From Phycisphaerales bacterium (GTDB lineage Bacteria; Planctomycetota; Phycisphaerae; Phycisphaerales; SM1A02), in contig JASMLY010000078.1 of assembly GCA_030748455.1 (NCBI GenBank), positions 1 through 53,228 on the forward strand: a DNA stretch of 53,228 nt. Reading direction: 5' to 3'. The notes beneath the pieces were generated by a model. That model saw nothing but the letters and a program-made list of their open reading frames with translations. It was not told where the DNA came from and made no database searches. Positions 3 through 47,180 of the stretch are shown piece after piece (the first letter of the stretch is position 1; every line of letters begins with the position of its first letter). The position numbers and the translations under genes are program-made.

Positions 3-380
3 GGCGGGTGCTGCGTCGGCGAAACATGCTCAATTGATACAGAAGCAGACTGTACGACTGCGGGCGGTACGTACCAAGGCGACGATACAACGTGCGACGA
101 TGATCCTTGCGCGATTCCAGATCCGACCGGCGGGTGCTGCGTGGGCGAAACATGCTCAATTGAAACGGAAGCAGATTGTACGACTGCTGGCGGTACGTAC
201 CAAGGGGACGACACAACCTGCGACGATGATCCTTGCTCATTTATACGCGGCGCGTGCTGTGCACTCAATACATGTATTCCAGACACACCAGAAGAAGCGT
301 GTGATGCGCTAGGTGGGACGTTTCATGGGGAGGGATCAAGTTGTGAAGATGATCCGTGTCCAGCCTCGGGCGCATGCTGT
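3..380 (+). repeat. Nearly identical 126-bp tandem units inside the Cys-repeat gene
   Basis: The first two visible GACC-type units begin at 3 and 129, exactly 126 bp (42 codons) apart, and are almost identical at nucleotide level over about 110 bp. Later units share only protein-level similarity. This points to recent unit duplication at this end of the array, and more copies probably lie to the left of the window. Confidence 0.8.
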
Positions 381-3300
381 TTGGGAACTACCTGTTCAGT
401 TGTTGAAGAAGAATCATGTACCTTGTTTGGCGGTGTATTTCTAGGTGCTGACACAACGTGCGACCTAGAGCCTTGCCGGAATCCTGGCGCGTGTTGCGTC
501 AATGACATCTGCTTTATCGCATCTGAACTTGAATGCGGTGAATTTGAAACTTCAACATATCTCGGGGATGACACGTCTTGTGATGACAGCCCATGCACAA
601 CAGAGTCAACAGGTGCGTGCTGTTCTTCAGAAGATGAATGCACAATTCAATCTCGCCAAAATTGCCTTGCTGCTGGTGGAACCTATAAGGGGGACGCCAC
701 TTCATGCGAAGAAACTCCTTGCCGAGTCGTCGACGCAACGGGCGCGTGCTGTGCCACCCTTGGAGGCGTTGGATGTATCGATGACACGGCCTATGAAGCG
801 TGTGTGGCATTAGGTGGAGATTATTTCGGTGACGAAAGTCTTTGTGAATCGATTTCTTGCGATTCAACGGTTACGCTCGGATCGTGCTGCGTCGGTGAAA
901 CGTGTTCATTCGTCACATCTTCTACTTGTTCAGACCAAGGTGGCACATTCAAGGGAAACAACATTTTTTGTAGCACAGATCCTTGTGCACCCCTACCAAC
1001 ATCTGGCGCTTGTTGTACGGAGGAAGCATGCACAATTCAGACCGAAGATGATTGTCTACTCGTCAATGGCGTGTTTAGAGGCGAGAACACAACGTGTTTC
1101 AATGACCCTTGTTTGGCGGGCGCTTGCTGTGCAAACGATGCATGTTTCGAGAACCTCACCCGCGAGGAATGTCTAGGAATCGGTGGGGAATATGAGGGTA
1201 ATGGGGCAACATGTTTGGGTGCCCCATGTACCCCGTTGGCAATTGGGGCTTGCTGTTTAGGCGATGGACTCGTTTGTGAAGAAGTACCGGAACTCCACTG
1301 CGATTCATTTAGTGGAACCTATGCAGGTGATGGCGTGCTCTGTTCAGAAGTGTCTTGTGCATCAATACCATTAGGTGGTTGCTGTATAGAAGAAGCATGT
1401 TCACTGTTGAGTGAAACAGTTTGTCTCAACGAATCGGGAACGTATGTAGGTGATGGAACGACATGCTTTGGTGATCCGTGCTTCTCACCCGAAACGCCAA
1501 TTGGTGCGTGCTGCGCATCAGAGCAATGCAGCGTTGGGTTCGAAGAAGATTGTCTTGCACACAACGGATTCTATTTAGGCGATGGTACAACGTGTGGATT
1601 TACTCCCTGTGGTCCTGACGCAGGTGCTTGTTGTGTTGACAATGGTTGTACGGTTACAGAACTCGTTGACTGTAGCGTCTTGGGAGGATCGTTCCACGGT
1701 GTTGGTAGTTCTTGTGCTGATTTTTCCTGCACCCAAGGTGCCTGTTGTATTGGTGGCAATTGTGTTGAATTACTTCAAACGGAATGTCAATCACTCGATG
1801 GCTTCTATGCGGGTGGTGGATCAAATTGCGACTCGATTGCTTGTACACCACCGGACGTCCCAATTGGTGCATGCTGCTTGATGGATGAATCCTGCATTCC
1901 AAACACAACAGAATCGTCGTGTACAAACTCTGGTGGTTTGTATCTAGGTGATGGGATCCTGTGCGAGGCTGGGAGTTGCGATCTTGAAACACCTCAAGCT
2001 GAAACACCACTCGTTCCAGAAGAAGCGTGTGTCAGTGAAACAATTACGCTCACTGCAGTGAATGAATCGTATCTTGAGTACGACTGGCAGGTACGCGATC
2101 CAGATGATTTTACGTGGGACACACTCCCTGGTGGTACAGCATCCGTGCAATGGACTGTCCACGAAACGGGTTTGTGGATTTTCCAATATCGACAGCGGCA
2201 ACACGGTTCTGCGTGGTCTCAATGGTCTGTCATTGTTGGCCAAACAATGGTCACAGATTGCGCGCCCACTGGTGGCTGTTGCGTAGCAGGGGAATGTACG
2301 CAGACAACAGCAGCAGCGTGTGAGGGTGCCTATCTTGGAGACTGGACATCGTGCCAAGCAACTTCTTGTGTTGAGAGTGAAGGTGTAACTGGTGCATGTT
2401 GTGTCGACACGGTTTGCGAAGTCATTTCCCTTTCAGATTGTGTAGGGGAATACCTTGGAGATGGAACAGATTGCGTCGACTCGCCATGTATAGAAGTGCT
2501 AGGGTCTTGTTGTATAGGAGATTCTTGCGTTCGTGTACCGTTTGATGTGTGTATCGAAGAATCGGGTATATACCGAGGTGACAATTCAATCTGTTGGAAC
2601 AACCCATGTGACGCAGTTGCTCTTGGAGCATGTTGTCTTGGGTCAGATTGCTACGATTCAATCGAGCAAAACTGTATGGGGCAATGGCTCGGAGCGGGTT
2701 CGGTATGTGAAGATTCTCCTTGCGAAAGTGAAGACGAAATCATCGGACCATTCCAATGGAAGAAGGAAGAAGGTGGAAATGACCATTGGTATGCAATTGT
2801 TGTCACCGATCCTCTTTGTTGGGTTGATGCAGATGTAGTGTCACGTGGGAACAATGGGTACCTTGCAACACTTACAACAGCAGAAGAATATGCATGGTGG
2901 ATTGCAACCTTCGGTGGAACTGGACAAGAGCCATACATCGGTTTGCGACAATTGCAGGGGGCTTCCGAACCAGCAGACGGTTGGGAGTGGGTGACAGGCG
3001 AGGGCGAGACGTATAGTCAATGGGTTTCTGGTTCGCCTAACGATGAGACGGGTGAAGCGAATGTTGCGCAAATGCTATCGAGTGGGTATTGGGATGATGT
3101 CACAGGGTGCACAACGAATTCGTATGCGATTGAATTTGGTCAATGGTACAACGTGTGCGAAACATGCGAGTACACAACAATTCAAGAAGCAGTCAATGAT
3201 GCAAGCAATGTAGAAACAATCTATGTCGGAGCGGGCACATATACTTCAGTTGATGGGATATCCCTCGTTGATTTGTTGGGGAAAGACATTTCACTCGTTG

Positions 3301-4379
3301 GCGCTGGGGCTGATTCCACAATCCTTGATGGTCAATACGCTGTTTCAGGATTAGATTTTGCGTATGGGCCTACAGGAAATGCATATGTAGAGGGCGTAAC
3401 GATTCAACACTGTGTCGATCGCACGGGTTCAGCAATTGTCGTACGCGGCGGAACACTCGAAATCGCGAACTGTGTCTTTACTGAAAACCAAGCGGTTGAT
3501 ACAGGTCAAAGTGGAGGGGCACTTTCCGCTAGTGGTGGTACCGAGCTTATCATTTCAAGCAGTGAGTTTACGAACAACGTTGCAGTCGCATTCGGCGGTG
3601 GCGTAAACCTGCAAGGCAGTGGTACAAATGCAACAATTACAGATTGCTTGTTTGCAAACAACGAGTCAACTATTGGAGGAGCTATCTGTGTGGCAGATGG
3701 AACTACATGCAGCGGTGATCTCATTGAGTTTACCGAGAATATTGCTGGTGACGGCGGAGCAGTAAGTATCACAGGCGATGGATCTTCCTTACTTTCATGC
3801 TGTTTCCAAAGCAACAACGCCTTGGGAGTTGGTGGAGCAATCGACAATCGCGCAGGTGCAAACACACAGCTCACCGATTGTTTGTTCACGAATAACTCTG
3901 CAGTGTATGAAGGCGGTGCGATCTATAACGATGACAGTACTCCGGTTTTATACCAGTGCACGCTTGCGTCAAACATTTCTTACGAAGAACATGGTGGTGG
4001 TATGCACAATGATGGCGATTCGATGCCATTCGTCGAATCAACACTTTTCTGTGGTAACACAGGTCGAGGCGGATCTGAGAGCGCGCTTGAAGGGCACATT
4101 TACCCAACGGTTGCGGATTCAGATTATGAATTTGTAGGTGGCAATGAGTTCCACGCGCTGTGTTCGACTTGTCAGGGTGACATCAATGGTGATGGTGAAA
4201 TTGATCTCACCGATCTGATTGCCATTGCAATGATTTCTGTATGGGGAGAGTGCAATGAATGCTTGGCTGATCTTGATAACAATGGCGTTGTTGACCCTGA
4301 TGACATTGTGATATTGATCGAATTGCTAACGTCTCGTCTTGATCGTCCGTGCGATATTGATTGTCCGTACCGATACTAA
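3..4379 (+). CDS. Giant secreted Cys-repeat / C-type lectin / beta-helix / dockerin protein (5' partial)
   Basis: The reading frame is open to the left edge, so the start and signal peptide lie outside the window; 1458 residues are visible. Twenty copies of a roughly 36-46 residue unit are seen: 16 in 3-1980 and four in 2271-2723. Each begins GACC or GGCC, carries six cysteines and has a central GG-x-Y/F-x-G-D-G/D motif, which suggests three disulfides per unit outside the cytoplasm. Between the blocks is an Ig-like stretch with Trp-rich strands. A C-type lectin-like domain follows (about 2746-3140, with WIATFGG, GWEWVTGE and SPNDE motifs), then a right-handed parallel beta-helix (about 3157-4140, with TIQEAVNDA and repeated GGA/NN turns). 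A dockerin-like pair of Ca-binding loops ends it (GDINGDGEIDLTD; DLDNNGVVDPDD). The likely role is surface attachment or carbohydrate binding; the substrate is unknown. It converges on the ketosynthase gene 25 bp away. Confidence 0.85.
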   Translation, partial: GGCCVGETCSIDTEADCTTAGGTYQGDDTTCDDDPCAIPDPTGGCCVGETCSIETEADCTTAGGTYQGDDTTCDDDPCSFIRGACCALNTCIPDTPEEACDALGGTFHGEGSSCEDDPCPASGACCLGTTCSVVEEESCTLFGGVFLGADTTCDLEPCRNPGACCVNDICFIASELECGEFETSTYLGDDTSCDDSPCTTESTGACCSSEDECTIQSRQNCLAAGGTYKGDATSCEETPCRVVDATGACCATLGGVGCIDDTAYEACVALGGDYFGDESLCESISCDSTVTLGSCCVGETCSFVTSSTCSDQGGTFKGNNIFCSTDPCAPLPTSGACCTEEACTIQTEDDCLLVNGVFRGENTTCFNDPCLAGACCANDACFENLTREECLGIGGEYEGNGATCLGAPCTPLAIGACCLGDGLVCEEVPELHCDSFSGTYAGDGVLCSEVSCASIPLGGCCIEEACSLLSETVCLNESGTYVGDGTTCFGDPCFSPETPIGACCASEQCSVGFEEDCLAHNGFYLGDGTTCGFTPCGPDAGACCVDNGCTVTELVDCSVLGGSFHGVGSSCADFSCTQGACCIGGNCVELLQTECQSLDGFYAGGGSNCDSIACTPPDVPIGACCLMDESCIPNTTESSCTNSGGLYLGDGILCEAGSCDLETPQAETPLVPEEACVSETITLTAVNESYLEYDWQVRDPDDFTWDTLPGGTASVQWTVHETGLWIFQYRQRQHGSAWSQWSVIVGQTMVTDCAPTGGCCVAGECTQTTAAACEGAYLGDWTSCQATSCVESEGVTGACCVDTVCEVISLSDCVGEYLGDGTDCVDSPCIEVLGSCCIGDSCVRVPFDVCIEESGIYRGDNSICWNNPCDAVALGACCLGSDCYDSIEQNCMGQWLGAGSVCEDSPCESEDEIIGPFQWKKEEGGNDHWYAIVVTDPLCWVDADVVSRGNNGYLATLTTAEEYAWWIATFGGTGQEPYIGLRQLQGASEPADGWEWVTGEGETYSQWVSGSPNDETGEANVAQMLSSGYWDDVTGCTTNSYAIEFGQWYNVCETCEYTTIQEAVNDASNVETIYVGAGTYTSVDGISLVDLLGKDISLVGAGADSTILDGQYAVSGLDFAYGPTGNAYVEGVTIQHCVDRTGSAIVVRGGTLEIANCVFTENQAVDTGQSGGALSASGGTELIISSSEFTNNVAVAFGGGVNLQGSGTNATITDCLFANNESTIGGAICVADGTTCSGDLIEFTENIAGDGGAVSITGDGSSLLSCCFQSNNALGVGGAIDNRAGANTQLTDCLFTNNSAVYEGGAIYNDDSTPVLYQCTLASNISYEEHGGGMHNDGDSMPFVESTLFCGNTGRGGSESALEGHIYPTVADSDYEFVGGNEFHALCSTCQGDINGDGEIDLTDLIAIAMISVWGECNECLADLDNNGVVDPDDIVILIELLTSRLDRPCDIDCPYRY

Positions 4380-15299: not shown

Positions 15300-17051
15300 A
15301 TGATAAAACAACTTATTGGTGCTCTGGGTGTGGCACTGTGTGCTGCTTCAAGTTCAGTCTTTGCTGTAGATTTGGATCCAGTGTACGTAAATTCTCCCCT
15401 CACAATCCACGAAGAAGAGGGACCTCGTGCTAGTAGAAGTTTTGCAACACGCTTGCAACTTCATGTAGATAACTTAGAGATTGCTACAGAGAGTCAGTAT
15501 GTATTTATTGAGAATTTTCCTCTCGATAAAGAACGCTTTGTGACATTACAACTCGAAGAAGCTTCTGCAGTTGCTGAAGACGCGAGGTTGGTCGTAATGA
15601 GAAGCGACGATCGAGGGAACGTGTATGAAGAAGAAATTCCTTGGCCGAAATGTCACGTGTACAAAGGTTCAGTTGTTGGTGAACCCACATCATCAGTGTT
15701 TCTTGCCATTGGCCAAGAAATAGCTAATGGCTGGATTTCAATTGATGGTACTCGATTCATTATTGGTACCCGATACGCTGATCGAATGACACTTCTTTAC
15801 GACGAAGCCAATGTCCCCGAGGGCATGATGAACTGGGCACAGTTTGATTGCAGCACCAAGGGCGGAAAGCCTTTCAAAGGCAATTCTGGTGAGAGGGCAA
15901 ACGCAATTCCTGATGAATGTCCACAGGTCAACATTGCTTTTGACAGTGATTCTGAATTCACAATGATTAACTTTGATGGCAGTGAAACAGCTGCGGCAAA
16001 CTATGTGAATACACTCGTTTCTTCCGTTTCAGACATTTATAAAGGGGCTATTACAGTCGGAGGAGCGGGCATACGATTAAAAGTGACCTACCTCCGCCTT
16101 TGGTCGGTTTCTGATGATCCTTGGACTGGAAGCGACACTAGCAGTCAACTTGAAGAGTTTTCAAATTATTGGCGTAACAATATGGGAGATATTGACAGGC
16201 ATCTCGCGCAGATTCTTTGTCAACGAAGCTTGGGTGGGGGTGTCGCGAACCTTTGGGGCCTTTGTAATGATGGATATGCGGTTTTAGGAGGCATGGCTGG
16301 TACGTTCCCAATACCTCTTGAGGGTGAACAAGAAGGTAATTGGGACCCGATTGTTTTTGCGCATGAAACGGGTCATAATTTTGGGATGATTCATACGCAC
16401 GAAATGGAAGACCCCCCGGATGAATGTGGTAACGGTGATTGCGCAAGTGCTAGTGGTGCAACAATTATGAGTTACTGCCATTTATGTGATCCAGGCATAT
16501 CGAACATCGCCTTTGAGTTTCATGACGATAACGTTGAAGCAGCTGAAGATTGGTTAGCAATAGTTGCTGGTTCAGAGGGTTGTGATCTCTCGCCAAATAA
16601 CCCCCCTCAACTCGAAGACGACCGGGCATTTACCGACATGAATACAGAGGTAGTTATTCACATCTTGGCAAATGACGCAGCAAACAATTGCAACAATTTA
16701 ACACTGGTTGATTTTGATCGACGAGCAAGAAGAGGTGGGCTTGTATCGCAAACAGCAGCCGATGAATTGACGTATACCCCAACTGGCACTTTTTCCGGTA
16801 CAGATTCGTTCACGTACGAAGCATCGAACGGAACTTATTCGGATATTGCAAACGTAGTTGTCGAGTTAAGCCGCCCACCATCAGGCGGTGGAGGCACCGA
16901 CCCTATTGATCCAAACGATGTCATTTTTGTCATTACACTTTGGGGTACAAGGACAGCTGATTGCACAGGTGATGGAACAACAAATATCGATGATTTACTA
17001 GCGGTTCTTGAAGGACGGGCGAAACCAGATCGTAGATTAGGTGGAAAATAA
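15300..17051 (+). CDS. Secreted reprolysin-like zinc metalloprotease with dockerin-like tail (copy 1)
   Basis: 583 residues. An N-terminal signal peptide (about 1-22, MIKQLIGALGVALCAASSSV) is followed by a pro-region, then a catalytic domain with the extended zinc motif HETGHNFGMIH at 355-365 and a downstream Met-turn-like IMSYC. These are hallmarks of the metzincin/reprolysin clan. A cadherin/VCBS-like beta domain follows (DMNTEVVIHILANDA to GTDSFTYEASNGTYSD), then a short dockerin-like Ca loop (DCTGDGTTNIDDLLAVLEG). The ATG has AGG 2 nt and AAAGGAG 12 nt upstream. It is probably an extracellular protease. It is paralogous to the next gene, 79 bp downstream. Confidence 0.9.
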   Translation: MIKQLIGALGVALCAASSSVFAVDLDPVYVNSPLTIHEEEGPRASRSFATRLQLHVDNLEIATESQYVFIENFPLDKERFVTLQLEEASAVAEDARLVVMRSDDRGNVYEEEIPWPKCHVYKGSVVGEPTSSVFLAIGQEIANGWISIDGTRFIIGTRYADRMTLLYDEANVPEGMMNWAQFDCSTKGGKPFKGNSGERANAIPDECPQVNIAFDSDSEFTMINFDGSETAAANYVNTLVSSVSDIYKGAITVGGAGIRLKVTYLRLWSVSDDPWTGSDTSSQLEEFSNYWRNNMGDIDRHLAQILCQRSLGGGVANLWGLCNDGYAVLGGMAGTFPIPLEGEQEGNWDPIVFAHETGHNFGMIHTHEMEDPPDECGNGDCASASGATIMSYCHLCDPGISNIAFEFHDDNVEAAEDWLAIVAGSEGCDLSPNNPPQLEDDRAFTDMNTEVVIHILANDAANNCNNLTLVDFDRRARRGGLVSQTAADELTYTPTGTFSGTDSFTYEASNGTYSDIANVVVELSRPPSGGGGTDPIDPNDVIFVITLWGTRTADCTGDGTTNIDDLLAVLEGRAKPDRRLGGK

Positions 17052-17130
17052 TTAGTTGATTGCCCCGTTAACTTTAGGGCTTGCAAGCAAGCAGTTAGTT
17101 GAGTGATTTAAAGGAATGGAGATCACGGAT

Positions 17131-19002
17131 ATGTTTGGAAAATTAATCACCGGCGCTTTGTTGGGAGCAATTACTGCGAATTTTGCTTTCGCTGCACCCC
17201 CAATTAGACTTGCCTCTCCAATATCGGTTCATCCAGAACCCGCACCACGTGATGTGCATCCTAGTGCAACTCGCCTTATGCTTAATGACATAGGGGAAGC
17301 ATTATGCAGTGAAGATGCCTCGGTAGATCTTAGCAGAGAGGGTGTTATGGTCCTCATAGAGGAGTTTCCTCTTGACGATGAGCGCGTTGTTACGCTTGAA
17401 CTAGAATCACTCAACTCACGCACTAATGGGGCCAAGCTCGTTGGATCGTCGTATGATCGCTTTGGGGGGATTGTACATCACGACCTTCCTTGGACAAAAG
17501 TTGTGATGTTGAAGGGAACAGTGCTCGGTGATTCAGATTCCCAAGTATTTCTTGGTTTTGGTGGTGGACTGGTCAATGGTTGGGTTTTTATTGATGGTAC
17601 AAGGTTCATGATTGGAACCTCGCCAAGTGAGGACCTCACACTTATTTACGATATGCAGAATATTCCGGGAAATTTTATTGATTTATCGGGGATCAGTTCC
17701 TGTGATACAGATTCATCAAAGGCCATTCACCTTCCAGCAGGTGGTAATCGAGATGGAGTGGATGGCTATGCACCATGCAATCAACTATGGATGGCGTATG
17801 AGACAGACAATGAGTTCCTAGATTTGTTTGCCGAGGCTCCAGCAGGCGCGGTTCCCGCAGCCACCGCGTATGTTCAAGTGCTTGTTGGGGCTGTTTCAAG
17901 TATTCTCTATGAACCAATTCTTGATATTGAACTAGTCATAAACTACCTTCGATTTTGGGTAGATGAAGATGGTTTTCCTGTCGCCGATCCTTGGATTGGT
18001 GCAACAACTGATGCTGGTCTCGCAGAATTTAGGCTTTATTGGGACTTGTATATGACAGATATTGAAAGAGGACTCGCCCAACTCTTCTCAGGAAGAGGTT
18101 TGGGTGGAGGCCTTGCAGGCCTTAACAACATATGTTCTGGTTCAGGAAATGCAATCATGGCAATGAATGGCTCATTTCCACAGCCACTTCAATCAAACTC
18201 AGCTGGCAACTGGGATTTCATCGTTGTAGCGCACGAAACAGGTCACAATTTTGGCATGATTCATACGTTTGATATGGATGAACCGCCCGACGAGTGCGGC
18301 GAAGAGTGTACTGATTATGACCCCATAGGTGACCCAGAATTTGATTGCGCTGATTATATCTCCACTATTATGAGTTATTGCCACCTGTGCCCGGGAGTCG
18401 ATGCCGCGTGCTGGGATAACGGCTCATGCTTTACTTGCGACCCATATCTATGGGATGCTAATATTACCTTTGAGTTTGCATTCGAAAATATTGTTCGAGC
18501 CTACAGCCATCTCGACAACCTTTCATGCGATCTTTGGCATGAAGACCCAGGTCCACCTACCGTCATCGATGATTTTGCTGAAACGGAGATGAATACTCCT
18601 GTTGATATTGAGGTTCTTGCAAACGACAGTTCAAACGATTGCACCTCCGAACTTACTATCATTCGTTTCGATTTGACATCAACTAGGCGGGGTATCGTCT
18701 CGCAAAGTTCACCATCGACATTCTTATATACTCCTCCTGCTAATGTCACGGGTACAGACTCTTTCACATATACGATTGTAAGTGAACGGGTTGAGCAAGC
18801 TACTACAGGCAATGTCGTGATTAATCTCACTCGAGACCCTGGTCCAAGTTCAGGACCCGTCGATGTTGACGATGTTGTGTTCATCATTACAGTGTGGGGT
18901 ACAGCGCGTGCCGACTGGAACGGTGATGGAACAACAGACGTCGACGATCTTCTCGCAGCCCTCGATGGCAAATTCAAACCAGACCGCACTCGGGGCAAAT
19001 AA
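17131..19002 (+). CDS. Secreted reprolysin-like zinc metalloprotease with dockerin-like tail (copy 2)
   Basis: 623 residues with the same architecture as the preceding gene: signal peptide MFGKLITGALLGAITANFAF, pro-region with the shared motif NGW-x-x-IDGTRF-x-IGT, zinc motif HETGHNFGMIH (about 368-378), a Met-turn-like IMSYC, a beta domain with ILAND/VLAND-type and GTDSFTYT motifs, and a dockerin-like DWNGDGTTDVDDLLAALDG. It has extra Cys-rich loops after the zinc site (CGEECTDYDP, CWDNGSCFTC) that copy 1 lacks. The start at 17131 is preferred to 17116 because GGAG is 9 nt upstream and it then matches the N-terminus of copy 1. It is followed by a strong terminator. Confidence 0.9.
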   Translation: MFGKLITGALLGAITANFAFAAPPIRLASPISVHPEPAPRDVHPSATRLMLNDIGEALCSEDASVDLSREGVMVLIEEFPLDDERVVTLELESLNSRTNGAKLVGSSYDRFGGIVHHDLPWTKVVMLKGTVLGDSDSQVFLGFGGGLVNGWVFIDGTRFMIGTSPSEDLTLIYDMQNIPGNFIDLSGISSCDTDSSKAIHLPAGGNRDGVDGYAPCNQLWMAYETDNEFLDLFAEAPAGAVPAATAYVQVLVGAVSSILYEPILDIELVINYLRFWVDEDGFPVADPWIGATTDAGLAEFRLYWDLYMTDIERGLAQLFSGRGLGGGLAGLNNICSGSGNAIMAMNGSFPQPLQSNSAGNWDFIVVAHETGHNFGMIHTFDMDEPPDECGEECTDYDPIGDPEFDCADYISTIMSYCHLCPGVDAACWDNGSCFTCDPYLWDANITFEFAFENIVRAYSHLDNLSCDLWHEDPGPPTVIDDFAETEMNTPVDIEVLANDSSNDCTSELTIIRFDLTSTRRGIVSQSSPSTFLYTPPANVTGTDSFTYTIVSERVEQATTGNVVINLTRDPGPSSGPVDVDDVVFIITVWGTARADWNGDGTTDVDDLLAALDGKFKPDRTRGK

Positions 19003-46394: not shown

Positions 46395-47180
46395 ATGAAA
46401 TATTTTTTAACCGTGGTCTTTGTGTCAGCGAGTGCCTTCGCAGAATTGTGGCGAGTACCAGAGGATTGTGAAACGATTACGCAGGCAATCGCAGCAGCTG
46501 AAGAAGGTGACACTATTGAGGTGGGCGTTGGTGTTTGGCGTGAGCGAATTGATTTGCTTGGAAAAGCTGTAACTTTACGAAGTTTGATGGGTGCGGAAGA
46601 GACAGTCATCGATGGTGGTGGACTTGGCCCCGTAGTTCGTTGCATCAATGGTGAGAGCTCGAGTACAGTGATTGAGGGCTTCACGATCACTGGTGGCAAG
46701 AATACACCGCATGGAGGCGGGGTACTTGCCATCAACACGTCCCCTTCAATCAGAAGGTGTTTTATTGAGTACAACGAAGCCGACAAAGGAGGTGGTTTGT
46801 ATGTGCGTGGTGGAAACCCCATCATAGATGCTTGCGTTTTTTCATCGAATGATGCAGGAGATGGAGATGGCATTTGGGCGAAACACGCGAGACCTGTGCT
46901 TACGGCGTGTATCTTTGCAGATGACACAATTGGTTGGGAGAGCGGAGAACTTGTCACCATCCGTGATACGAACAGCCCAGCTGGTGCGTGTTGTATCAGA
47001 GACGTTTGTGTGCAAACAGCCTCGGTCGCATGCTGGGAAGCAGGCGGTTTATATCGGGGCGAAAACTCTACGTGCGAGTTGGCGTGTGATGCGGTTTGCG
47101 ACGAAGACGTAACTGGTGATGGAGTTGTCAATATGACTGACCTGTTACACGTTATTTCAGCTTTTGGTTTTTGTCCCTGA
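46395..47180 (+). CDS. Small secreted beta-helix protein with one GACC repeat and a dockerin-like end
   Basis: 261 residues. A signal peptide (MKYFLTVVFVSASAFA) is followed by a right-handed parallel beta-helix (about 20-190; TITQAIAAAEEGDTIEVGVG, then GGGVLAIN and GGGLYVRGG turns). A single six-cysteine unit, GACCIRDVCVQTASVACWEA with GGLYRGENSTCELAC, matches the units of the giant protein at the left edge. A dockerin-like Ca loop ends it (DVTGDGVVNMTDLL). It shares three of the modules of the large protein in compact form. It is probably extracellular; no catalytic residues were recognised. It converges on the SUF operon. Confidence 0.8.
   Translation: MKYFLTVVFVSASAFAELWRVPEDCETITQAIAAAEEGDTIEVGVGVWRERIDLLGKAVTLRSLMGAEETVIDGGGLGPVVRCINGESSSTVIEGFTITGGKNTPHGGGVLAINTSPSIRRCFIEYNEADKGGGLYVRGGNPIIDACVFSSNDAGDGDGIWAKHARPVLTACIFADDTIGWESGELVTIRDTNSPAGACCIRDVCVQTASVACWEAGGLYRGENSTCELACDAVCDEDVTGDGVVNMTDLLHVISAFGFCP

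Follow-up and report, generated by a model that had tools for sequence, protein, structure and literature searches.

A six-cysteine repeat unit of Phycisphaerae proteins and its similarity to a module of the iRhom homology domain

The closest known structure to the GACC unit, a six-cysteine repeat encoded in a 53,228-nucleotide stretch of Phycisphaerales DNA (contig JASMLY010000078.1; hereafter the window), is a module of the iRhom homology domain (IRHD), a relative of solved structure that an earlier, sequence-only reading of this DNA had missed. The unit is best explained as a self-contained module of about 38 residues, consisting of a beta-hairpin, a short helix and an irregular cysteine-bound tail, in which three disulfides would form. 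In the array protein at the start of the window, about 20 such units would be strung as beads on short linkers, forming within a secreted protein an acidic and flexible spacer stapled by disulfides; this spacer would hold out a C-type-lectin-like domain and a beta-helix, with a dockerin-like tail closing the protein. This explanation as a whole, an iRhom-like disulfide module with the array as a spacer, is favoured with modest confidence. The units, their conservation, the order of domains and the sequence and model matches to iRhom were computed in this study.

Table 1 Features of the window discussed in the text
Feature	Position	Strand	Basis or remark
Array protein reading frame	3..4379	+	1458 aa within the window; 5' end lies beyond its edge
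GACC units 1-16, tandem	3..1979	+	C6-to-next-G linkers of 2-7 residues
97-residue insert between units 16 and 17	1980..2270	+	by eye also in P0098-P0100
GACC units 17-20	2271..2723	+	six-Cys unit count
C-type-lectin-like region	2745..3137	+	macrophage mannose receptor match, E 3.7e-11
Right-handed beta-helix / PMP-type repeat region	3150..4157 (approximate limits)	+	Chlam_PMP 3.2e-10, POMP_repeat 1.2e-5
Dockerin-I-like C-terminal tail	4176..4328	+	PF00404 E 0.0028, 18.3 bits; curated cut-off of 22.9 not reached
Two adjacent secreted-type M12B reprolysin-like metalloprotease genes	15300-17051, 17116-19002	+	domain search
Second GACC gene, 261 aa	46395..47180	+	one unit at 46983-47087

The twenty six-cysteine modules counted in the sequence-only reading were all recovered, with exactly six Cys in each, but they do not form a single array, since 16 units are followed by an insert, Ig/PKD-like as judged by eye, and then by four more. 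As the reading frame is open at the window edge, the array is possibly longer. Neighbouring units within both blocks start 37-46 residues apart, their cysteines are spaced by 0, 4-7, 7-8, 10-14 and 4 residues, and a regular expression for the unit matched 20 times, versus no more than one match in each of 1000 shuffled versions of residues 1-907. The GG-x-Y-x-GD core that had been assigned to every module stands as a consensus, the strict form being present in only 5 of the 20 units, GG-x-[YFW]-x-G in 10 and G-x-[YFW]-x-G in 19. In units 17, 18 and 20 (window 2271-2735) the loop is shortened to C4-x10-C5 and the GG pair is missing; none of units 1-16 shows this variant. The array is strongly acidic, with 151 Asp+Glu versus 13 Lys+Arg in 915 residues. 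The product of the second GACC gene has a signal-like start by eye, a beta-helix-like part, its one unit and a dockerin-like tail; its matches to PF00404 (E 0.0076) and DUF1565 (E 0.0072) are sub-threshold.

A total of 2769 distinct units came from the loci and the retrieved proteins, and all six cysteines are kept in 2522 of the 2532 distinct units that have letters in every Cys column. The few paired cysteine losses conflict and give only a hint of a C2-C6 disulfide. With the first search pattern, C2 and C6 were lost together in three unrelated-looking units (three further rows had a shifted C6 kept, or were not displayed), C1 and C4 in one, C1 and C3 in three related-looking units, and C2 and C3 in one; with a stricter pattern, C2 and C6 were lost together in four related-looking units and C6 alone was missing in 25. 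Losses of C1 with C2 under both patterns, and 1282 apparent C6 losses under the first, were discounted as pattern artefacts.

The GACC family is real and is unnamed in Pfam and NCBIfam, where no family model, of known function or otherwise, covers the unit, in agreement with the earlier statement that no named function was known. Family-model searches with 21 units gave no family at E <= 1 (in another run, one match at E 0.42), and with 115 units three families at E <= 0.1, with one member each and a best value of 0.023. Neither a GACC repeat nor a bacterial relative of the IRHD is named in the titles and abstract openings among the literature matches listed. A DNA pattern for the unit core was found in at least 119 stretches of genome contigs and in 15 viral contigs, and a profile at >=10 bits placed units in 115 of the 119 genome stretches and in all 15 viral ones, making 131 of 135 sources with the window included; the other four (L040, L065, L073 and L113) contain no unit by profile and were counted as chance pattern matches. 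Reversed sequences of these loci, which were themselves chosen by DNA pattern, gave two domains at >=10 bits and none at 15, versus 890 real domains at 10 bits. By record title, the pattern loci are mostly from Phycisphaerae or other Planctomycetota, bearing out the earlier statement that similar modules occur in Phycisphaerae proteins; a few are from Myxococcales, Deltaproteobacteria, Zixiibacteriota, Thermodesulfobacteriota and Acidobacteria, and four are labelled only 'bacterium'. The 15 viral contigs are from IMG/VR (L120-L134), and their source could be phage, provirus or misbinned bacterial DNA. Whole-genome scans covered the phyla of a Phycisphaerales (G001), a Myxococcales (G007) and an Acidobacteria (G011) genome, with these centre genomes included in the counts. 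Units are present in 13 of 294 genomes in the phylum of G001 and 48 of 198 in its class (at least 37 scored matches in 20 of those 48), versus 3 of 146 and 6 of 119 genomes in the phyla of G007 and G011, respectively. In the two other sampled phyla the units are sparse.

A protein search with the array protein gave 774 matches, and the statements made here rest on the best 120 of them, among whose names Eisenbacteria also occur. The best match, P0098, is 1632 aa long and aligns with the entire query at 50% identity. Its start resembles a signal peptide by eye and is followed by a domain of about 100 residues, 17 units, the same insert, four units (21 in total), a lectin-like region, a beta-helix and a tail. 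The start of P0098 suggests that the window gene probably encodes an exported, secreted protein whose first part was lost to the window edge. The best P0098 counterparts of units 17, 19 and 20 lie in the same place, unlike that of unit 18, and no preserved order was seen for units 1-16 against P0098 (Spearman -0.47, p 0.07). Because order is not kept and units 1 and 2 share 93% DNA identity over 108 nt, the long block appears to turn over by duplication. Short linkers, strong acidity, this turnover and the presence of the lectin-like domain and beta-helix downstream together argue for a spacer as the main role of the array, which we regard as slightly the better bet. The lectin-like region may bind a ligand; Pfam Lectin_C was absent from the array protein at E <= 1 and is present in the related P0192.

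In organisation, the array protein resembles the fibrillar adhesin-like proteins described in the excerpted text of PMC8286594, being a long secreted-type protein with tandem repeats and a region that is lectin-like by sequence; its sole anchor candidate is the sub-threshold dockerin-like tail, and stalk, anchor and adhesion are all putative. Unlike the stalks of those adhesins, the GACC repeat matches no Pfam model, and hence is not among the Pfam stalk families in that text; the array protein also has no known anchor, and any filament is putative. Dockerin type I / Chlam_PMP beta-helix proteins of Phycisphaerae share the beta-helix and the dockerin-like tail with the array protein, while the GACC unit lies outside their family models.

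The compact fold that the earlier reading had suggested from the cysteine spacing is supported, at the level of a model, by the structure prediction it had called for, in which AlphaFold predicted a fold for the unit, and by the near-complete conservation of the six cysteines. From an alignment of 115 sequences, one unit was modelled with a mean pLDDT of 91.1 and pTM 0.61, with strands at 2-5 and 8-11 and a helix at 14-19. Three other tandem units (alignment of 78) gave pLDDT 86.5 and pTM 0.45; confidence dropped towards the linkers, a pattern that flexible beads would produce but that falls short of proof.

Several comparisons connect this predicted module with iRhom. Against PDB sequences, a 115-unit profile matched only iRhom1 and iRhom2 below E 0.1 (1.4e-4 to 2.1e-3). 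Foldseek with the one-unit and three-unit models returned only iRhom chains at E <= 10, all weak at E above 0.001, and a Foldseek search of viral structures (BFVD) gave no match; VIA-align placed one unit, with moderate Z, on the same iRhom2 residues as the sequence match, about 569-611, which we call module 2 ('module 1' and 'module 2' are names coined here). When the cysteines were held fixed in 5000 shuffles, the real score for the iRhom2 module was 33.6 bits, whereas the shuffles reached at most 31.6 (median 9.3), and that for the iRhom1 module was reached once; for the first halves of module 1, it was reached 139 times for iRhom2 and once for iRhom1. A profile-profile alignment of GACC with 12 iRhom segments gave Prob 89.6 and E 1.9e-6 over 36 columns, and its score of 28.2 exceeded that of each of 300 decoys in which the non-Cys columns had been permuted (best decoy 23.0). 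As real scores exceed those of cysteine-fixed shuffles and decoys, non-Cys residues contribute to the match. In the reverse direction, a module-2 profile of 34 iRhom segments, run over 15,787 ORFs, placed GACC at ranks 1-8, in 14 of the top 20 and in 24 of the top 50, but weakly, with a best E of 0.009 and only two GACC units above the top reversed-sequence match (11.8 bits). A module-1 profile ranked one GACC unit first and only four in the top 20. For module 2 the support thus comes chiefly from the bacterial side; for module 1 it is weak. The iRhom proteins were the best 120 of 525 matches, vertebrate as far as named.

The IRHD, the extracellular domain of iRhom, is called unprecedented or unique in structure in the excerpted text of two papers. 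Similarity between GACC and IRHD was found in sequence at the level of the module, despite the weak reverse search, and in fold on predicted models. Module 2 (PDB 8snl, 9o58, 9xy4 and 9q7y) and the GACC unit share the frame CC-x6-C-x7-C-x13-C-x4-C, a hairpin-helix fold superposing at 1.8-2.1 A on models, an extracellular setting, and a common Gly, aromatic residue and Thr in the C4-C5 loop, whereas the conserved Gly of the GACC x-GD is Glu in iRhom. The IRHD differs in having 16 Cys and two regions of this kind, along with insertions and additional disulfides, and in lying inside a rhomboid pseudoprotease, where TM1 and TM2 flank it; the bacterial proteins in which GACC units are repeated lack a rhomboid part. 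A complete 16-Cys IRHD with the iCERES loop was not found, the units having six Cys and no such insertion. The rhomboid domain PF01694 was absent from the seen window protein (E <= 1) and from P0098 (E <= 0.01), and the window protein, lacking a rhomboid-like membrane domain, is therefore not an iRhom.

The GACC unit and IRHD module 2 very probably have the same fold, and common ancestry is the somewhat favoured origin of the likeness; these estimates, like that for the spacer, draw on the PDB-profile match, the Foldseek and VIA-align comparisons of models, the cysteine-fixed shuffles and the decoys. Short cysteine-rich modules often converge, and one small disulfide scaffold may have been reached independently in the two families. 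The weak Foldseek E-values and reverse search are consistent with such convergence, as is the lack of an intermediate, a precomputed rhomboid domain occurring in none of the best 120 of the 774 GACC-protein matches. That origin is nevertheless rather unlikely, because the non-Cys residues raise the match beyond cysteine-fixed shuffles and decoys, and because the spacings most frequent in GACC units for C3-C4, C4-C5 and C5-C6, namely 7, 13 and 4, are also those of iRhom. It is also possible, but doubtful, that the units act as multivalent protein- or glycan-binding modules and not as a spacer, with the contact at the hairpin loop that joins the CC pair to the third Cys, which at 4-9 residues is the most length-variable part of GACC units. 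In the excerpted text of PMC11248996, mutation of D475 of iRhom2 disturbs the interface with the ADAM17 prodomain, and an engineered Cys link at S477 also held the prodomain; both residues fall in the matching loop of iRhom2 module 1, CC-VQNDHSG-C (letters checked). This parallel is suggestive, but it uses module 1, the weaker match; binding remains putative and without a known ligand, and the turnover of unit order in the first block also argues against it. A combined scenario, in which the ADAM17-contacting domain of animal iRhom is built from a module gained from Planctomycetota-like bacteria around the time animals arose, and in which the units of bacteria bind proteins through the CC-to-C3 loop, like the D475 loop in iRhom2, is improbable.

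iRhom acts on an M12B protease, and GACC modules could by analogy be specific partners of ADAM-type (M12B) metalloproteases, as the IRHD is for ADAM17. Two M12B genes do lie within the window, P0201 fuses M12B with six units, and in genome G001 units are present in 3 of 8 tested M12B ORFs (of nine matches), where the catalytic match is followed by three, three and eight units (L196, L197 and L201, respectively). The M12B products of the window each carry a bacterial Ig/cadherin-like domain and, by eye, a dockerin-like tail. Over 29 genomes, however, units were found in 3 of 62 M12B ORFs versus 10 of 60 ORFs for subtilisins (S8), a difference opposite to the one predicted (Fisher p 0.042), the samples being non-random, with 62 of the listed M12B matches and 60 hand-picked S8 places. 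All three positive M12B ORFs are from one genome, and none of 19 motif-bearing ORFs in 30 shorter M12B loci, partly the same places, carries a unit. In the positive S8 ORFs (L261, L264, L265, L270, L280, L294, L296, L303, L306 and L307), one or two units follow the catalytic match; L294 is a fragment lying past an in-frame stop, and leaving it out makes the S8 count 9 of 59. Among background ORFs of >=300 aa, with the target ORFs themselves included, 21 of 814 have units. A special tie between GACC and M12B was rejected on domain co-occurrence, as in these non-random samples S8 ORFs carry units more often than M12B ORFs, and such a partnership is very unlikely; the counts suggest that the units are a general add-on of secreted-type proteins, proteases included.

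In summary, an abundant, unnamed repeat of Phycisphaerae now has a predicted fold, and it is proposed to give the IRHD, for which two groups, in the excerpted text of their reports, described no structural homologue, a first relative in structure together with a large family of bacterial sequences. If the homology is true, the origin of the iRhom-ADAM17 regulator would become testable, and the variation across thousands of bacterial units could be used to read the module.
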